Shown in pieces: positions 459 through 43,811 of a stretch of DNA of 45,468 nucleotides. Each line of letters starts with the position of its first letter. The stretch's first letter is position 1. The stretch is from NCBI GenBank assembly GCA_947452925.1, contig CANGFK010000003.1, positions 1-45,468 on the forward strand, written 5' to 3'. The translations under genes and the position numbers were made by a program. The notes below the pieces were generated by a model that saw nothing but the letters and a program-made list of their open reading frames with translations, searched no databases and had not been told where the DNA came from. The stretch is from Chitinophagaceae bacterium. GTDB taxonomy: Bacteria; Bacteroidota; Bacteroidia; Chitinophagales; Chitinophagaceae.

Positions 459-794
459 TCAATAAGTTAAGCAATACCCTCAATACGGAAGCTAGAATTG
501 CTTTGAATTAATCTAAAACGGACTTTTATTAAGCAATAACTGCTTTGAATTAACTCAAAACTGACAGCAGTAACGTCATAATTCACGTCAACCCTGTCAG
601 GGTTCACATGAATTATAGGATTTCTGACTTCTTTTATGTCATCTCTGATGTCAACCCTGACAGGGTTGACATCAGAGATGACATAATTCCCTTCAATTAT
701 TGAAAAAAGCAAGGGAGAAATGGAATAACTGCTAGCAGAGATGCAATTTCTCACGTGAACCCTGACAGGGTTGACGCGAGAAATTGCATCTCTC
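459..794. repeat. Intergenic 21-bp-register palindromic array (array A, about 16 units)
   Basis: 21-bp slices align (CTTTGAATTAATCTAAAACGG / ACTTTTATTAAGCAATAACTG / CTTTGAATTAACTCAAAACTG ...). The core AACCCTG(A/T)CAGGGTT starts at 590, 653 and 758 (spacing 63 and 105, both multiples of 21). Confidence 0.8.
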
Positions 795-886: not shown

Positions 887-2572
887 TTACTTTTCAATCC
901 TGAACCAATCATAATCAGCATAGCCCGTTTCATAAGTTTTGCCGTGTCTGATGGCGAAAATGCCCACTTTAGAACCTACCCATTTACCCTTTTTAGCCTC
1001 AAATGGTTCCCCAACTGGTTTAAAGGTTTTACCATCTTCACTATAACTGAAAGTACACAAAGCATTGCCGTATTCGCTGTTTTCTGCAATGTTATATGTT
1101 TTGTATTCAGGCGATTTAGGGTCAATATTTCTCACAGTTACTTTAAAATAAAGTGTTGTATTATTTACCAGAATCTCTTCTCCTTTTTGTTCAGGCTTAC
1201 CATGTTCTGCATCAATACATTTTGTTTGAGAAACCACCAAACCCTTCGGCGTTTTCTTAAGAGATAGGTAGGAATAATCTATACCCGTAACAATCAGACC
1301 GGTTTCCTCGTCATCAGTCCTTGGCGTAAAAGTGAATTTGGTGACAGCAGAAAAATTAGGTGCAGGGAACTTTTGGGTTAATAGGTTTGGAACCGTCCAC
1401 AGGTTGATGCTATTGTCCGGAACGGGTACATTAAACAACCTTATAAATCCATAGCTACTACCCGCAGGAAAACAGAAATTACTTTGTGGGTTGGCATCCC
1501 ATTGCCACTGAAGCCCCAAACTATTATCATTAAACTCATCCGATTCCTGAGGCGTTTCTATGGGATAGGTCTTGCCCACATTTGGTTTTTTGTAGGTCAG
1601 CACAGGTTCTCCAATGCCGTTGCCATCTTTGTCAACACCCATCATTGGCCAATCGTTCACCCATTTCACAGGTTCTAGATGAGCAATACGTCCATAAGCA
1701 TCCTTATCCTGAAAGTGAAGAAACCAACTTTCGCCTGTTTGTGTTTCTACCCATCCACCTTGGTGAGGACCATTGGTAACAGAAGAACCTTGTTCCAAAA
1801 CAACTTTTTGTTCATAAGAGCCATAAATATTTTTGCTACGCATCACCAATTCCCATCCTTTTCCAACACCGCCGGCAGGCGCCATTATATAGTAATAACC
1901 ATTGCGTTTATACATTTTTGGACCTTCGATAGTTGGATTTTTATCGTGACCATCAAATACCAGAACACCATCATCCAAAAGTGTAGTTCCGTCGGCACTC
2001 ATCCTGTTTAATATCAAGGAGCTTTTTATTCCAGCCCTGCTTCCAGCCATCCCATTTATAAGGTATGCTTTGCCATCTTCATCCCAAAAAGGACAAGGGT
2101 CTATCCATCCTTTTGCTTTTTTAACTAGTAAAGGGGCGCTCCAAGGCCCCGCAGGATTCTTAGCTTTCACCATATAAATACCCAAATCGGGATCGGGATA
2201 ATAAATATAAAACTCTCCATCATGAAAACGGATAGCAGGCGCCCAAACGCCACCACCATGTTGCACACTATCATAGCGCTCAAAAGGAGGCTGTTTGGTA
2301 AATACATTGCCAATGAGTTTCCAGTTTATCAAATCTTTCGAATGAAGAATGGGCAAAGCAGGAACATAGTTAAAGCTAGAAGCGGTAAGGTAATAATCAT
2401 CACCAACGCGTATCAAATCGGGGTCGGAATAGTCGGCGTGCAATACAGGGTTTTTGTACGTTCCATCACCATTGTCAGCCACCCAAACTTTGGACACATA
2501 ATGAGTAGCAGTTTGTGCGGTAACTACTGTGACTGCTGAAAGAAAAAGTAGAAAAGAGAATAATTTTTTCAT
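887..2572 (-). CDS. Glycoside hydrolase family 43 (beta-xylosidase/arabinofuranosidase-like), secreted
   Basis: Signal peptide MKKLFSFLLFLSAVTVVTAQ; NPVLHADYSDPDLIRVGDDYYLTASSFNYVPALPILHSKDLINW is a GH43 N-terminal signature; C-terminal concanavalin-like region. Confidence 0.9.
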   Translation of the reverse strand: MKKLFSFLLFLSAVTVVTAQTATHYVSKVWVADNGDGTYKNPVLHADYSDPDLIRVGDDYYLTASSFNYVPALPILHSKDLINWKLIGNVFTKQPPFERYDSVQHGGGVWAPAIRFHDGEFYIYYPDPDLGIYMVKAKNPAGPWSAPLLVKKAKGWIDPCPFWDEDGKAYLINGMAGSRAGIKSSLILNRMSADGTTLLDDGVLVFDGHDKNPTIEGPKMYKRNGYYYIMAPAGGVGKGWELVMRSKNIYGSYEQKVVLEQGSSVTNGPHQGGWVETQTGESWFLHFQDKDAYGRIAHLEPVKWVNDWPMMGVDKDGNGIGEPVLTYKKPNVGKTYPIETPQESDEFNDNSLGLQWQWDANPQSNFCFPAGSSYGFIRLFNVPVPDNSINLWTVPNLLTQKFPAPNFSAVTKFTFTPRTDDEETGLIVTGIDYSYLSLKKTPKGLVVSQTKCIDAEHGKPEQKGEEILVNNTTLYFKVTVRNIDPKSPEYKTYNIAENSEYGNALCTFSYSEDGKTFKPVGEPFEAKKGKWVGSKVGIFAIRHGKTYETGYADYDWFRIEK

Positions 2573-7479: not shown

Positions 7480-7584
7480 CCTATATGTTATGCTTTGCGC
7501 TTTGAATGCTAATATTTGAGTCATGAATATTAGCATTTGAGCCATGAATGTTATCCTTCTAGCATTGAATATTGACAATTAGTT
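7480..7584. repeat. Intergenic 21-bp-register array (array B, about 5 units)
   Basis: Consecutive 21-mers TTTGAATGCTAATATTTGAGT / CATGAATATTAGCATTTGAGC / CATGAATGTTATCCTTCTAGC / ATTGAATATTGACAATTAGTT, preceded by CCTATATGTTATGCTTTGCGC. Confidence 0.7.
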
Positions 7585-19163: not shown

Positions 19164-19291
19164 GTTATTTATTTATATGTTGGGCGTCGAAGATTGGTAA
19201 ATTACAAACTCCATTTGTGTTTTATATATTATTCTTTGGTTAATTTTTAAATTATGATTGAATGATTAGAATGAGTAAAATGATTCTACAA

Positions 19292-19326
19292 ACTAACCAC
19301 TAATAACTAATCACTAACAACTAATG
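19292..19326. repeat. Heptamer tandem array (array F, 5 x 7 bp)
   Basis: ACTAACC ACTAATA ACTAATC ACTAACA ACTAATG, running into the miaE stop codon. Confidence 0.75.
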
Positions 19327-20061: not shown

Positions 20062-20292
20062 TCATCACCTGAATCAGGCAATAATCCACTTGAGTGACAG
20101 ATAAATTCACGTGAGTCACGTTTCGACTCACCTGAGTGAGAACCCGACTCACGTGAATTTATCTTTCCCCCACCTGAGTGAAAGTCTGACCCAACTGAGT
20201 GGAAACGTGACTCACGTGAATTTATTCTTCACTCAGGTGAGTCGAAACCTGACTCAGGTGGGTGGAACCCCGACTCAAGTGAGGAAATGACC
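20062..20292. repeat. Intergenic 21-bp array (array C, 11 units): GACTCANNTGAGTG plus 7-bp linker
   Basis: CANNTG cores start at 20066, 20087, 20108, 20129, 20150, 20171, 20192, 20213, 20234, 20255 and 20276, exactly 21 bp apart. Confidence 0.92.
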
Positions 20293-22827: not shown

Positions 22828-23145
22828 TGTTATAAATGTTAATGCACGCCTATGGTCATAGCTGATGGCTGATGAACCAATAGTGTTTTAATAATAAATA
22901 ATTGTCCTGAAAAAATTGTGTAAACAGGTGCTGAAAGACAGCTGGGAATAAGTAGGAATTACAACCCAATGGGATGATCGAGAAAGTCTAAATTTGAAAG
23001 AAGGAATACCATAACACCTGAATTGGGGCGCAAGATAAAGAATTTACAGTGATTAATTAAAAGTACAATACTTGGCATTCCGATCAATAATGAAAAATAA
23101 ATATTTCGATGCCAGTTTTCTATAATTTTTAATACAAGCATATTC

Positions 23146-23370
23146 TTATGGGATACACATGAATTAACATTAATTCATGCACACCCTTATAGGATACACG
23201 TGAATTAACATTAATTCATGTACACCCTTAAAGGATACACGTGTATGACTGCCAATATGTACATATCCTATAAGGATGCACGTGTGTGACTGCCAATATG
23301 TACACACCCTTATAGGATACACATGAATGAACATTAATTCATGTGTATCCTATAAGATTACTCGTGTATT
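23146..23370. repeat. Intergenic 41-bp tandem array (array D, about 5.5 units) with two alternating core types
   Basis: Units start at 23146, 23187, 23228, 23269, 23310 and 23351. Units 1, 2 and 5 share GAAT(T/G)AACATTAATTCATG; units 3 and 4 share TGACTGCCAATATGTACA. Confidence 0.92.
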
Positions 23371-28210: not shown

Positions 28211-29623
28211 ATGTTTATCAAACAGTTGTATACTAATTGTCTCAGCGAGTATGCTTACTACATAGAAAGTAATGGAGAAGCCGCTATTGTTGATCCATTG
28301 AGAGATGTGGACGTTTATCTGAACCTTGCTAAAGAAAGAGGTGCAAGTATTAAATATATTCTCGAAACACACTTTCATGCGGACTTTGTGAGTGGACATC
28401 TTGATTTGGCATCTGCCACAGGCGCTACAATAATATATGGTCCGGATACTAAAACTAAATTCAAAGTACACGTTGCCAAAGATGGAGAAGTGTTCAAGCT
28501 TGGAGGCAGTAGCATAGAATTGGTTCACACACCCGGACACACACTAGAAAGTAGTTGCTATCTTCTGAAAGATGAATCAGGAAAAGCACAAGCTATTTTT
28601 ACAGGAGATACCTTATTTATAGGTGATGTTGGTCGTCCCGATCTTGCTCAGAATGCTGATATTACCATGAGCGAGCTTGCTGGTATCCTGTATCAGAGTA
28701 TCCAGTCAAAAATTATTACCCTCAGTGATGACGTAGTTGTATATCCTGGTCATGGAGCTGGAAGTAGTTGCGGTAAGAACCTGAGTAAAGAAAGAGCAAG
28801 TACTATTGGTCAGGAGAAAGAGACAAATTATGCACTCCAATCGCAAACGAAAGAAGCGTTCATAAAAGCAGTTACAACAGGATTAGCAACACCACCAAAA
28901 TATTTTCCATTGAATGCACAGATAAATAAAGAAGGATACGAAAGTTTGAATGCTATTTTAGAAAAGGGGATGCAGCAATTGTCTGTAGATGCCTTCAAGC
29001 AAAAAGCAAAAGAGGATAATGCCATAATATTAGATACACGACCTGCTTCTAGTTTTGTGGAAGGTTTTATTCCTAGTTCAATATTTATTGGGCTTGAAGG
29101 CCGTTTTGCAGAATGGGCTGCCAATTTGATATCATTCGATAAAACTATTTTGTTGGTTACAGAAACTGGCAAAGAACAGGAAACTATTACTAGATTAGCA
29201 AGGGTTGGTTTTGACAAGATGGGTGGGTATCTGGATGGAGGTTATGAAGATTGGAAAAATGCTGGTGAACAAATAGATATGCTGATTGATGTAGAGGCTG
29301 ATGAGTTGGCGATGGACATTTCATTTGATGATAATCTGGTTGTATTGGATGTGAGAAAGGAGTTGGAATATGATAATGGTCATTTGCAACAGTCAATGAA
29401 CATTCCTCTAGATGAATTGATTGATCCAGGAACACTTGCCGATTTTGATGAACATCACAATATATATGTTAATTGTGGGGGAGGTTACAGGAGTGTTATC
29501 GCCTGTTCTATTTTAAAACAACAAGGGATTCATAATCTGAGAAATGTTGTTGGTGGATGGGACGCTATCAGTAAGCTGAGTGATAAATTTAGTATTGCAA
29601 AGACGGAAGCTACTTTTTCATAG
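28211..29623 (+). CDS. MBL-fold hydrolase fused to two rhodanese domains (persulfide dioxygenase-like)
   Basis: ETHFHADFVSGHLDLA, GDTLFIGDVGRPDLA, VYPGHGAGSSCG; rhodanese IILDTRPASSFVEGFIPSS and VVLDVRKELEYDNGHLQQSMNIP...YVNCGGGYRS. Confidence 0.92.
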   Translation: MFIKQLYTNCLSEYAYYIESNGEAAIVDPLRDVDVYLNLAKERGASIKYILETHFHADFVSGHLDLASATGATIIYGPDTKTKFKVHVAKDGEVFKLGGSSIELVHTPGHTLESSCYLLKDESGKAQAIFTGDTLFIGDVGRPDLAQNADITMSELAGILYQSIQSKIITLSDDVVVYPGHGAGSSCGKNLSKERASTIGQEKETNYALQSQTKEAFIKAVTTGLATPPKYFPLNAQINKEGYESLNAILEKGMQQLSVDAFKQKAKEDNAIILDTRPASSFVEGFIPSSIFIGLEGRFAEWAANLISFDKTILLVTETGKEQETITRLARVGFDKMGGYLDGGYEDWKNAGEQIDMLIDVEADELAMDISFDDNLVVLDVRKELEYDNGHLQQSMNIPLDELIDPGTLADFDEHHNIYVNCGGGYRSVIACSILKQQGIHNLRNVVGGWDAISKLSDKFSIAKTEATFS

Positions 29624-29638: not shown

Positions 29639-29696
29639 AATAGATAAAATAAAAGAGGGTTGAACAATTGTTCAACCCTCTTTTATTTTATCTATT
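29639..29696. terminator. 58-bp perfect palindrome, probable bidirectional terminator
   Basis: AATAGATAAAATAAAAGAGGGTTGAACAA|TTGTTCAACCCTCTTTTATTTTATCTATT between convergent genes. Confidence 0.85.
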
Positions 29697-29702
29697 CTGA
29701 AA

Positions 29703-30623
29703 CTATTTAAGAAGTTCACAGGGTTTCAAGCCTGTATGTTTTTTAAATGCCGCCGAAAAATGTGATATTGAAGAGTATCCCAATGCTTCAGATACATCCG
29801 TTACGCTTAATCCTTTTTCGTAAAGGAGATATTTACCATGTTCCATTCTTTGTTGTTGAAAGAAGTCGAAGATAGTTGTCCCAAACAGTTCCCTAAAACC
29901 TTGCTTTACATAGCATTCATTCATAGCTACTTTTCTGCTCAGTTCTCTAATAGTTATTGGATTGCCAATATGCTCTAATAAGATCTCCCTAGCTTTATAT
30001 ATACCCTCTCTGCTGCGTTCATCATTTAGAAACTTGCAAGTAAATCCTTCTTGCTTCTCTTCAATCAAACAATCAAGGCTATATAATAGAAGTTCTTGAA
30101 TCTTTGCATTAATAAAAATATTCTCTAAAGCACCCGTATAACTATGATTAAGTATAGCATCTAGTACGTTCCTTTTTTTGCCACATATAGGAAAGGTCTT
30201 AGTGAATGCCTCTGTATGTTTAAAGGCAAGAACTTCGTCTTTCTTATTCTTAAGTTTTGTATTATTTGTGAACTGACTAAGGAATGTGTTTGAAAAATGG
30301 AAATTAAATGTATCAACTGTCATTTGCTTGCCATTACAATCTGTAGGCTGGTTTTTGCAACTAGCGCAACTTTTTTCATAACAATATCTATTGCCTGTGA
30401 TACAAAAGCGCAATTCTATATAGTTATTTTCTGGGTTCTTTATATCATAATGGTAACGCATCATTCCTGATTCATCTGAAACCCATTCATGTTGAGCAAA
30501 ATATCTGTTGATATTGTAGTTAATTGAGCCTGGAATCTGCTGTTCTTTATGGTAAACGACATCCATACTTGGTTCTATACCTGCGCGATGTGCTAATTGT
30601 AAGATATCTCTAAACTGGGGCAT
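29703..30623 (-). CDS. AraC-family transcriptional regulator
   Basis: C-terminal AraC HTH: ITIRELSRKVAMNECYVKQGFRELFGTTIFDFFQQQRMEHGKYLL...SVTDVSEALGYSSISHFSAAFKKHTGLKPCELLK. Confidence 0.93.
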   Translation of the reverse strand: MPQFRDILQLAHRAGIEPSMDVVYHKEQQIPGSINYNINRYFAQHEWVSDESGMMRYHYDIKNPENNYIELRFCITGNRYCYEKSCASCKNQPTDCNGKQMTVDTFNFHFSNTFLSQFTNNTKLKNKKDEVLAFKHTEAFTKTFPICGKKRNVLDAILNHSYTGALENIFINAKIQELLLYSLDCLIEEKQEGFTCKFLNDERSREGIYKAREILLEHIGNPITIRELSRKVAMNECYVKQGFRELFGTTIFDFFQQQRMEHGKYLLYEKGLSVTDVSEALGYSSISHFSAAFKKHTGLKPCELLK

Positions 30624-36545: not shown

Positions 36546-36549
36546 AACA

Positions 36550-36654
36550 GTTATGAGTTATGAATTATAAGTTATGAGTTTAAAGCAAAGAACTCATTCT
36601 TAATTCTTAAAAACTCATAATTCATAACTTATAACTCATAACTTATAATTAAAA
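36550..36654. repeat. Heptamer array with inverted halves (array H, 15 x 7 bp)
   Basis: GTTATGA GTTATGA ATTATAA GTTATGA GTTTAAA GCAAAGA ACTCATT CTTAATT CTTAAAA ACTCATA ATTCATA ACTTATA ACTCATA ACTTATA ATTAAAA. Confidence 0.85.
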
Positions 36655-37970: not shown

Positions 37971-37980
37971 GAAAGGGGCA

Positions 37981-38190
37981 TTTAAATCATCAGGAAAATG
38001 ATTTTAATGAACAGGAAAACAGTTTTAATGATGATTAAAATGATTTTAATGAACAGGAAAATAAATTTAATGATGATTAAAATAACTTTAATGTAGAGTA
38101 AAATCATTTTACTCATGATTAATACGAATTTACTCATGATTAAAACGAATTTAATCATAAGTAAAACGAATATAATGATGATTAAAATAG
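37981..38190. repeat. Intergenic 21-bp array inside the dcw operon (array E, exactly 10 units)
   Basis: Ten consecutive 21-mers of consensus WTTTAATSATGATTAAAAYGA (palindromic TTAATCATGATTAA plus 7-bp linker), filling most of the mraY-murD gap. Confidence 0.95.
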
Positions 38191-39704: not shown

Positions 39705-39774
39705 AATTGATAATGGATAATTGACAATTAATACCCGCAAACTGTCAATTATCAATTATTAATTATCAATTAAA
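39705..39774. repeat. Heptamer array with inverted halves (array I, 10 x 7 bp)
   Basis: ATTGATA ATGGATA ATTGACA ATTAATA CCCGCAA ACTGTCA ATTATCA ATTATTA ATTATCA ATTAAAT; begins 4 bp after the murD stop and ends 5 bp before the ftsW start. Confidence 0.85.
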
Positions 39775-39779
39775 TAATT

Positions 39780-41099
39780 ATGACAGATACTTTATTCTCA
39801 CAGATGCCCACCATACAGGGGATGCGCAGCCAACTGGCACTGCGGACGCGTGGAGACAAGTTTATCTGGGCAATTGTGGTGTTGTTGGCGTTGATATCTG
39901 TGATGGTGGTGTATAGTGCCACGGGTTCGCTTGCCTACAAGATGAATAAAGGAAATACAGAGATTTACCTTTTCAAGCAACTGGCATTTATGATGCTAGG
40001 CTTGTTTGGTATCTATTTTTTACACCGGGTTAACTATAGTATTTATAGCAAAGTAGCGTCGATATTATTTCTTGCAGCTATCCCCTTGTTGATTTATACC
40101 TTGTTTTTTGGAGCTAAAATAAATGAAGGGAGCAGGTGGATACGTTTACCAATAATCAATATGACGGTGCAGACGAGTGACTTCGCAAGACTCGCTTTGT
40201 TCATGTATGTATCGAGGGTTTTGAGTAGAAAACAAGAGGTTATAAAGAAGTTTAAAGAAGGATTTTTGCCCATCATCGTGCCTGTAGCGGTCATTTGTGT
40301 GTTGATTGCGCCTGCAAACCTCTCTACTGCATTACTAACAGGGGCTACTTCATTGTTGCTGATGTTTATTGGACGCGTAAGCTTCAAACATATTTTATTA
40401 GCCATTGGCGTTGCGGCAATACCAATTGGGTTATTGATTTCAGTGGCAGTTTTAACACATAAAAACAAGCCTGACACAGAATTGGTGGGGGAAAATGTGA
40501 AGGAAGAGAAGTCGAAGGGACTAATGGTGAGGGCTGGTACATGGATAAAGAGGGTGCAAGACTTTATATATGCAAAAAATGAGGATGTGCCGTATCAGGT
40601 GCAACAATCAAAGATAGCTATTGCAAATGGAGGAGTCTTAGTAGGACTTGGTCCTGGCAATAGCAGACAAAGAAACTTCTTACCACACTGTTATTCCGAC
40701 TTTATATATGCCATCATCATTGAGGAATATGGTTTGTTGGGAGGGGCATTTATAATGATTGTCTACTTAGTTTTCTTGTTCAGGGGTATACGTATTTTTA
40801 GGAAATGTCCTTATGCTTTTGGGGCTTTTTTAGCGTTGGGACTCAGTTTTACATTAGTAATTCAAGCCCTGGCAAACATGGCAGTGTCGGTAAATATTGT
40901 ACCAGTAACGGGTGTAACGCTGCCCTTGGTGAGTATGGGGGGTAGTTCGTTTCTGTTTACGTGTATGTCCATCGGGATTATATTAAGCGTAGCGAGAAAC
41001 GTAGAAATAACAGAAGGAAAGGTGGAACCGGAGAGTGTTTTGGGAGAGAACCCCTCCGCCCCTGAAGGAGGAATCCTTCCGTCCCTAAAGGGAAACTAG
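39780..41099 (+). CDS. ftsW: FtsW/RodA/SpoVE-type SEDS glycosyltransferase
   Basis: VVYSATGSLAYKM, ISVMVVYSATG, IAIANGGVLVGLGPGNSRQRNFLPHCYSDFIYAIIIEEYGLLGG, GVTLPLVSMGGSSF. Confidence 0.95.
   Translation: MTDTLFSQMPTIQGMRSQLALRTRGDKFIWAIVVLLALISVMVVYSATGSLAYKMNKGNTEIYLFKQLAFMMLGLFGIYFLHRVNYSIYSKVASILFLAAIPLLIYTLFFGAKINEGSRWIRLPIINMTVQTSDFARLALFMYVSRVLSRKQEVIKKFKEGFLPIIVPVAVICVLIAPANLSTALLTGATSLLLMFIGRVSFKHILLAIGVAAIPIGLLISVAVLTHKNKPDTELVGENVKEEKSKGLMVRAGTWIKRVQDFIYAKNEDVPYQVQQSKIAIANGGVLVGLGPGNSRQRNFLPHCYSDFIYAIIIEEYGLLGGAFIMIVYLVFLFRGIRIFRKCPYAFGAFLALGLSFTLVIQALANMAVSVNIVPVTGVTLPLVSMGGSSFLFTCMSIGIILSVARNVEITEGKVEPESVLGENPSAPEGGILPSLKGN
41075..41093. repeat. CCCTTTAGGG-type repeat inside the ftsW 3' end (arm 1)
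   Basis: CCTTCCGTCCCTAAAGGGA; exact reverse complement at 41179-41197. Confidence 0.85.
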
Positions 41100-42395: not shown

Positions 42396-43790
42396 ATGAA
42401 CGATAGTAATAAAAATATCAGCTACTTACTAAACTCCCCTTCATGGGATGGGGGTACCATCTATTTCATCGGCATCGGTGGAATAGGGATGAGTGCGTTG
42501 GCGAGGTATTTTCATTCCAAAAATTATAAAGTAAGTGGTTATGATAGGACATCCACCGAGCTTACGAGGACTTTGGAGGCGAGTGGGATAGCTATTCATT
42601 ACGAAGAGAACTTGGATTTAGCTCCTAAAGATGCAAAAGTGATTGTGTATACTCCTGCTATTCCTGTAAATCATGCCGAGTTGGTTTATTATCAGAAAAA
42701 TGGCTATAAGGTGGTAAAGCGTAGTGACATTTTGCAATGGATTACCGAAAGTTCTTTCAATATATGTGTGGCTGGTACGCATGGCAAAACGACTACTACC
42801 ACCATGACGGGGCATATTCTCAGACATAGCGGTTATGGTTGTAACGCCTTTTTGGGTGGTATTGCTGCAAACTATCAAACTAACTTCTGGAGCGATATCA
42901 ACAACGTAGTGGTGGTAGAAGCGGATGAGTATGACAGAAGTTTTTTGAAGTTGACTCCTGATGTCGCCATTATTACAGCAATGGATGCGGACCATTTGGA
43001 CATCTATGGAACACCCGAGGAGTTTGGTAATGCCTTTATTCAGTTTTCTGAAAAGATAAAAGCGGGTGGGTTGTTAATCAGCAAATATGGACTGAGCAGA
43101 ACGGCTGAATTTACTGTTAGCAATCACCTCTCCTATAGTTATAATGACAACAGGGCTTCAGTTTATGCAAAGGACATCAAGGTAGTCAATGGTTCTTACT
43201 TGTTTGATGTGGTGTTTAAGGGAGAAACGATCAGTGACATCACTTTGAACATGGGTGGTTTGCACAACATAGAAAATGCAGTTGCGGCCATTGGGGTAGC
43301 GAAGTATTTGAACATTTCTGATGAAAAGATTAAGGCAGCTGTGGCAGATTTCAAAGGAGTAAAGAGAAGGTTTGAATACATTGTTAAGACAGAAAAGCAA
43401 GTATTGATAGATGATTATGCGCATCATCCCGAAGAATTGAGGGCTTTGATAAGTGGTATCAGGAGTTTGTACGGAACAGAGAAGTTGACCCTGATTTTTC
43501 AACCGCATCTCTATTCTAGGACAAATGATCAGGCAGCAGAATTTGGGGTTAGTCTGAGTATGGTAGATGAGGTGATTTTGTTACCCATTTATCCTGCAAG
43601 AGAATTACCTATTCCCGGTGTGACAAGCGAGATGTTGTTGGATAAAATGACAATTGCCAACAAAAAGGTGTTGGGCAAAAAGGAAATGGTAGAGTGGGTG
43701 AAAGCAAATAAACCGGGTTTGATAGTGATGGCAGGTGCAGGAGATATAGATGTGTTGGTGGGGGAAGTGAAGCAAGTGATTAGTGGTTAG
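42396..43790 (+). CDS. murC: UDP-N-acetylmuramate--L-alanine ligase
   Basis: IYFIGIGGIGMSALARYFHSKNYKVSGYDRTSTELTRTLEASGI, CVAGTHGKTTTTTMTGHIL, VEADEYDRSFLKLTPDVAIITAMDADHLDIYG, DDYAHHPEELRALI. Confidence 0.96.
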   Translation: MNDSNKNISYLLNSPSWDGGTIYFIGIGGIGMSALARYFHSKNYKVSGYDRTSTELTRTLEASGIAIHYEENLDLAPKDAKVIVYTPAIPVNHAELVYYQKNGYKVVKRSDILQWITESSFNICVAGTHGKTTTTTMTGHILRHSGYGCNAFLGGIAANYQTNFWSDINNVVVVEADEYDRSFLKLTPDVAIITAMDADHLDIYGTPEEFGNAFIQFSEKIKAGGLLISKYGLSRTAEFTVSNHLSYSYNDNRASVYAKDIKVVNGSYLFDVVFKGETISDITLNMGGLHNIENAVAAIGVAKYLNISDEKIKAAVADFKGVKRRFEYIVKTEKQVLIDDYAHHPEELRALISGIRSLYGTEKLTLIFQPHLYSRTNDQAAEFGVSLSMVDEVILLPIYPARELPIPGVTSEMLLDKMTIANKKVLGKKEMVEWVKANKPGLIVMAGAGDIDVLVGEVKQVISG

Positions 43791-43811
43791 TTATTAGTTG
43801 TTAGTGGGTTG
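43777..43811. repeat. Heptamer array overlapping murC stop and ftsQ start (array K, 5 x 7 bp)
   Basis: TGATTAG TGGTTAG TTATTAG TTGTTAG TGGGTTG. Confidence 0.7.

Follow-up and report, generated by a model that had tools for sequence, protein, structure and literature searches.

We find that, in an uncultured Chitinophagaceae bacterium, the gap separating two genes holds a tandem array, array A, which we read, with a probability of a little over one half, as an old and partly decayed intergenic array of 21-bp dyad-symmetric units that would be maintained by fold-back templating together with copy-number changes of 21 or 42 bp. The abundance of 21-base arrays in this genus and the matching arms of the hairpins in related species suggest that copying at the DNA level keeps the hairpins matched. 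The window, the whole stretch of DNA analysed (45,468 nucleotides), is the entire contig C3, which is why array A lies near a contig end. The features of the locus are as follows.

464–800 (approximate bounds), no strand: array A, a single indel-free register of about 16 units, each of 21 bp
485–568, no strand: two 42-bp direct repeats (AAGCTAGAATTGCTTTGAATTAA type), left part of the array A register
578–616, minus strand: hairpin copy 1, core 590–604, inverted relative to copy 3, conserved in sequence
634–686, no strand: hairpin copy 2, core 653–667, a perfect 53-nt palindrome centred at 660
737–793, plus strand: hairpin copy 3, core 758–772, 168 bp from copy 1
887–2572, minus strand: GH43 glycosidase gene (Pfam PF04616 and PF17851), 3′ end towards array A

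Each unit of array A spans two helical turns, with dyads every 10.5 bp, and comprises a 15-bp slot and a 6-bp linker (21-bp rows counted from 590). The core AACCCTG(A/T)CAGGGTT has a T at its centre in copy 1 and an A in copies 2 and 3, and its three positions are, to the base, those given in the original prediction. Within the window, 0.01 matches to the 13-mer of the core are expected by chance with one mismatch allowed, and the genome search proposed at the time returned no copy in the 3.37-Mb assembly beyond these three. The palindrome of copy 2 was recovered exactly as described. Copies 1 and 3 indeed contain two non-pairing positions each. In copy 1 these are C.C, adjoining the core, and, three pairs farther from it, C.A; in copy 3 they are G.G and A.C. 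The 15-bp core that had been proposed as the shared element is exact as a sequence but too short as a unit; residues 586–607 are the reverse complement of 755–776 across 22 bp, and the shared unit is therefore longer than 15 bp. The cores are spaced by 63 and 105 bp, and the 21-bp register claimed for them holds across the whole of 464–800, where the mean match at lags 21–105 is 0.479 compared with 0.263 after shuffling (z=18.5). The register extends outside the three palindromes (0.436 against 0.273 shuffled; z=7.7). Two things go beyond the original prediction: the linkers and adjacent slots of the array form the arms of each hairpin, and array A belongs to a class of arrays found across the genus. 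Folding of the 53- and 57-nt hairpins gives energies 11–12 s.d. below those of shuffled sequences; the fold of copy 1 is weaker than these two (z of −3.7 on the plus strand and −6.7 on the minus strand).

A DNA search for the array A region covered the 13 genomes of the genus (the window's own genome is G000). Matches were found in G006 (84% identity over 61 bp) and G010 (75% over 64 bp). Each of these genomes has two mutually inverted cores exactly 168 bp apart, equivalent to copies 1 and 3 of the window. There is no indel between the outer cores, yet the intervening sequence is only 48–56% identical. When the sequences are slid against each other, the top match is at shift 0 and the next-best shifts are nearly all 21, 42 or 63. 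Moreover, every palindrome detected in the three genomes has its centre a whole number of 10.5-bp steps away from core 1 (0, 5, 6, 11 and 16 steps). Copy 1 is 32/39 identical to G006 and 30/39 to G010, and over about 40 bp its sequence is kept in the three species, the C.C and C.A positions included. The arms of copy 3 are specific to each species and are paired within each. The row occupied by copy 2 is without a core in G006 and G010; in a further species, G001, a core is present at this same row (row 3). Comparison of the two arms of copy 2 with the orthologous sequences did not reveal which had been the template. Homology between the window and its relatives runs about 45 bp past the left core and weakly on the right side.

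The genes adjoining the array differ between species. In the window the neighbour is GH43, whereas in G006 and G010 the array is flanked by a gene not assigned to a family and by one that, on our reading of its sequence, looks like a putative flippase; the fragment of the latter that was tested had no Pfam match. The unassigned gene has no close ortholog in the window's own assembly. It has a 58% relative in G001, and upstream of that relative lie five hairpin copies with cores at rows 0, 3, 5, 7 and 9, indel-free and spaced by 63, 42, 42 and 42 bp, alternating with TTTT...AAAA slots. A second G001 array with the same unit type, found on another contig with the 12-hairpin model described below, has cores at rows −6, −4, −2, 0 and 3. 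Hence, arrays of this type occur in three genomic contexts across four species, with two loci in G001. The weak model matches that were inspected (G000 C409, G007 C1 and G001 C53) each consist of a lone hairpin outside any 21-bp register. Among 200 relatives the exact core is rare outside the window genome and is not accompanied there by long matching arms; the core with its flanks had no match in a viral collection. Relatives retrieved with the GH43 gene are Chitinophagaceae and other Bacteroidota metagenome-assembled genomes, and their sequence downstream of GH43 is different, so that synteny there is of no help. Two loci in G001 (L209:1180–1400 and L269:850–1110) have 42-bp two-slot arrays, in which an AACCGA..CGGTT slot alternates with a TTTT..AAAA slot.

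The original prediction had proposed covariation or hairpin-templated correction from arms that differ between copies and pair within each copy, a view that orthologous arms varying without preserved pairing would contradict. Pairing within each copy extends to three further species, an outcome that supports the prediction. Alignments were ungapped and centred on the core, without fitting to structure. Two controls were used, a shuffle that ignores relatedness and a slid structure that retains it. Among seven hairpins from G000, G006 and G010, 10 of 18 pairs have two-sided changes compared with 4.8 after shuffling, and none of 500 shuffles was as high. With the addition of five G001 hairpins, to give 12, 86.3% of cells are paired (66.3% shuffled) and 39 are two-sided compensatory cells (15.8 shuffled), a count reached in 0/500 shuffles. 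The covariation score of this set is 0.486 against 0.158 shuffled (0/500 as high), and slid structures reach at most 0.172. Since covariation exceeds both the shuffled and the slid controls, pairing is preserved as the arms change.

Several observations lean towards copying of DNA as the process responsible, as judged from the sequences compared. Every array has at least one core loop inverted relative to its others. All three G000 cores have TGACA, whereas both G006 copies and copy 3 of G010 have TGAGC; copy 3 of G000 also has the GACG flank of copy 1. The common TGACA and GACG flank in G000 indicate that copies are homogenized within a genome. In the hairpins of the relatives, non-Watson–Crick pairs on the gene strand comprise 5 G.T and 11 A.C, and there is thus no RNA-type excess of G-U on this strand. 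Finally, copy number differs between the arrays compared in steps of 21 or 42 bp. The inversion of loops, the homogenization of cores and the absence of excess G-U together favour fold-back templating at the DNA level, with the steps in copy number pointing the same way. Template switching is known to create hairpins and to maintain or repair them (PMC8794818). In array A, a single strand would fold back at the core during replication and each arm would be re-copied from its partner by template switching; this would make the arms of a copy match, flip the loops and spread one core among the copies, while the length of the array would rise and fall in steps of 21 or 42 bp. An additional constraint on helical phase, structural or protein-mediated, may act on the DNA, as the constancy of the 21-bp register suggests. 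Conservation of copy 1, including its unpaired positions, is not explained by correction alone and hints at selection, as for a binding site.

This last point bears on the main rival to templating, helically phased protein binding, in which array A would comprise sites for a dimeric or polymerizing DNA-binding protein, their dyads a whole number of turns apart on one face of the helix and with looping over the 168 bp between the outer sites. Exact retention of this distance (16 turns) in three species despite about 50% divergence accords with such sites, as do the conserved sequence of copy 1, dyads at multiples of 10.5 bp and a peak of dyad spacing at 10.25–10.5 bp in the intergenic DNA of the window genome. 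Long, variable, pairing arms are not needed by a protein site, however, and the G001 core occupies different rows. The units of other arrays of the class are unrelated to one another, and hence no single sequence-specific protein fits them all. We regard protein sites as unlikely, and the hairpins as somewhat less probable still as RNA structures held by selection on pairing, within the 3′ region of the GH43 transcript or the leader of the next gene. Strong compensatory changes and very stable folds are what an RNA would give, and the few non-pairs of transition type in the window's hairpins would be G-U on the minus strand. Against this, the relatives lack a gene-strand G-U excess, the array adjoins different genes in different species and an RNA would have no evident need of a helical 21-bp register. 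In a scan of array A with Rfam no family passed its curated cut-off; the weak matches were to microRNA models and far below it, as expected for perfect hairpins.

Movement by a transposase, as a MITE or a REPIN-like inverted pair, is also improbable, slightly more so than an RNA. The cores do form an inverted pair, the several genomic positions characteristic of MITEs are seen in the three contexts, including two within G001, and the window genome encodes Y1_Tnp proteins: three PF01797 matches exceed the cut-off (one with an internal TAG) and are candidates for RAYT genes, with which REP/REPIN systems are associated. The many dispersed palindromes of REP/REPIN are absent, with one locus in G000 and one pair each in G006 and G010. 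Copy number varies within the array, and homology continues past the inverted pair, about 45 bp on the left and weakly on the right, so that the cores are not element ends and no terminal inverted repeats of a MITE are seen. No genome with an empty version of the window locus was found. The dyad-symmetric tandem units of variable number do agree with a generic palindromic minisatellite. That array A is ordinary sequence, either coding heptad repeats or transcription terminators, is very improbable. A 109-codon open frame does run along the minus strand (467–796), without Pfam relatives, but all six frames contain stops in G006 and G010 and changes have no consistent codon periodicity, on which grounds a coding origin was rejected. 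No Rho-independent terminator, with a run of T after a GC-rich hairpin, was found in 240–900.

Array A has a wider setting: the window genome contains 19 arrays with a unit within 1 bp of 21n in 224 kb sampled (8.5 per 100 kb); densities for the class come from sampled stretches of draft assemblies with crude gene calls. Density is similar in most sampled species of the genus, with none seen in the sampled stretches of G012 and G004. In 40 stretches from other genera within the family and order, about 657 kb in all, seven arrays were found (about 1 per 100 kb), some of them coding. By the crude gene call, arrays of the class are mostly intergenic, and most loci have their own sequence. Of 147 tandem-repeat rows with a period of at least 15, 109 are within 1 bp of 21k where 21 are expected, a description and not a test because rows of one array can overlap. 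Intergenic autocorrelation has z of 12.7, 16.4, 9.2 and 13.3 at lags 21, 42, 63 and 84; the window genome has peaks at 21, 42, 63, 84, 105 and 126, and the genus at the first four of these. The signal in the genus persists, weaker, when the arrays are masked; other genera did not show it. Units are palindromic more often than expected, at p≤0.05 in 11 of 49 arrays (binomial 2e-5). Within the window, four further arrays illustrate the class.

7503–7550, no strand: 21-bp array of 2.3 units, G006 having about 9 at the orthologous site
20125–20283, no strand: 21/63-bp array with CTCAGGTGAGT palindromes between divergent genes, missing at the orthologous place in the other species compared
23129–23330, no strand: array with a 41-bp unit, palindromic (p=0.002)
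37979–38187, no strand: 21-bp array (TTTAATCATGATTAAA) between mraY and murD in a peptidoglycan gene cluster

The gap between mraY and murD (relatives L221–L227) has repeats in six species, the window's included, and none in five. Its palindromic units mostly differ from one species to another (AAT/ATT, GTT/AAC, CTT/AAG and CGT/ACG), and covariation at the level of the unit is 0.134 compared with 0.075 shuffled. This is modest and a slide of +1 comes close (0.123), making the locus a supporting case only. In 25 other arrays of the class there was no excess of pairing within over between units (summed z of −0.14). Correction is therefore supported for the AACC...GGTT family and not for the class. 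Close species differ in both array length and sequence. We tentatively propose, as a possibility for which the odds are against, that much of the intergenic DNA of this genus is formed and re-formed as dyad-symmetric arrays whose period is fixed at two helical turns, every locus having a sequence of its own while fold-back templating and a 21-bp step preserve pairing and register; this would be an undescribed class of self-correcting intergenic DNA.

Open-licence literature yielded nothing direct on 21-bp palindromic arrays in Bacteroidota. The 23-bp BrickBuilt MITE and the 41-bp 464/PgRS minisatellites of Porphyromonas gingivalis are likewise intergenic tandem arrays in this phylum; their units are close to two or four turns of the helix in length and their copy number varies at fixed sites (PMC4596501). 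Whereas those are one sequence family recurring across many loci, within a MITE that has a leader and a tail, the 21-bp arrays have their own unit at most loci, no element ends were found and the units are often palindromic. REP/BIME sequences, and REPINs with their RAYT transposases, share with array A short imperfect palindromes in inverted pairs between genes (PMC3116915, PMC3733652); array A differs in that it is not dispersed, its core being at one locus in three genomes, and in its tandem 21-bp register. Heptanucleotide repeats are abundant in intergenic DNA (PMC4692102, PMC4679880), and 7-/14-bp arrays occur in the window genome too. In the window genome's intergenic DNA, however, the signal is at lags 21, 42, 63 and 84, with 7, 14, 28 and 35 flat, and units of 41, 62 and 65 bp are not multiples of 7. 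An origin from heptamers is rejected for the window genome, with no signal at lags 7 and 14 and array A peaking at 21k. Template-switched hairpins share with array A multi-base compensatory changes of the sort expected when one arm is copied off the other; they were described for RNA genes (PMC8794818), whereas array A is a non-coding tandem array with helical phase.

Compensatory changes are commonly taken to prove that an RNA is functional. In array A they occur in non-coding DNA with no G-U signature and in helical phase, so that the array lends itself naturally to testing hairpin-templated copying in bacteria. The sharpness of the 21-bp step across unrelated arrays of a single genus also raises the question of what enzyme or constraint gauges a length of two helical turns.

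Other repeats were noted in passing. A 62-bp array of 5.2 copies with CTCTCC..GGAGAG units, 62 bp being about six helical turns, lies near a GH43 gene in G006 (L032:5917–6238). Short 7-/14-bp tandem repeats of AGTTATG, AACTCAT and AGTGGTT types are present in the window at 19291–19325, 36549–36580, 36612–36650, 39705–39781 and 43775–43807, several beginning a few bases from a stop codon, and such repeats are common across the genus. In the window's own genome, a 235-bp direct repeat in two copies occupies a contig end (L045:1–481). Finally, a 58-nt perfect palindrome with 29-bp arms (29639–29696) is located between genes at 28211–29623 (plus strand) and 29703–30623 (minus strand) and is probably a bidirectional terminator of this convergent pair.
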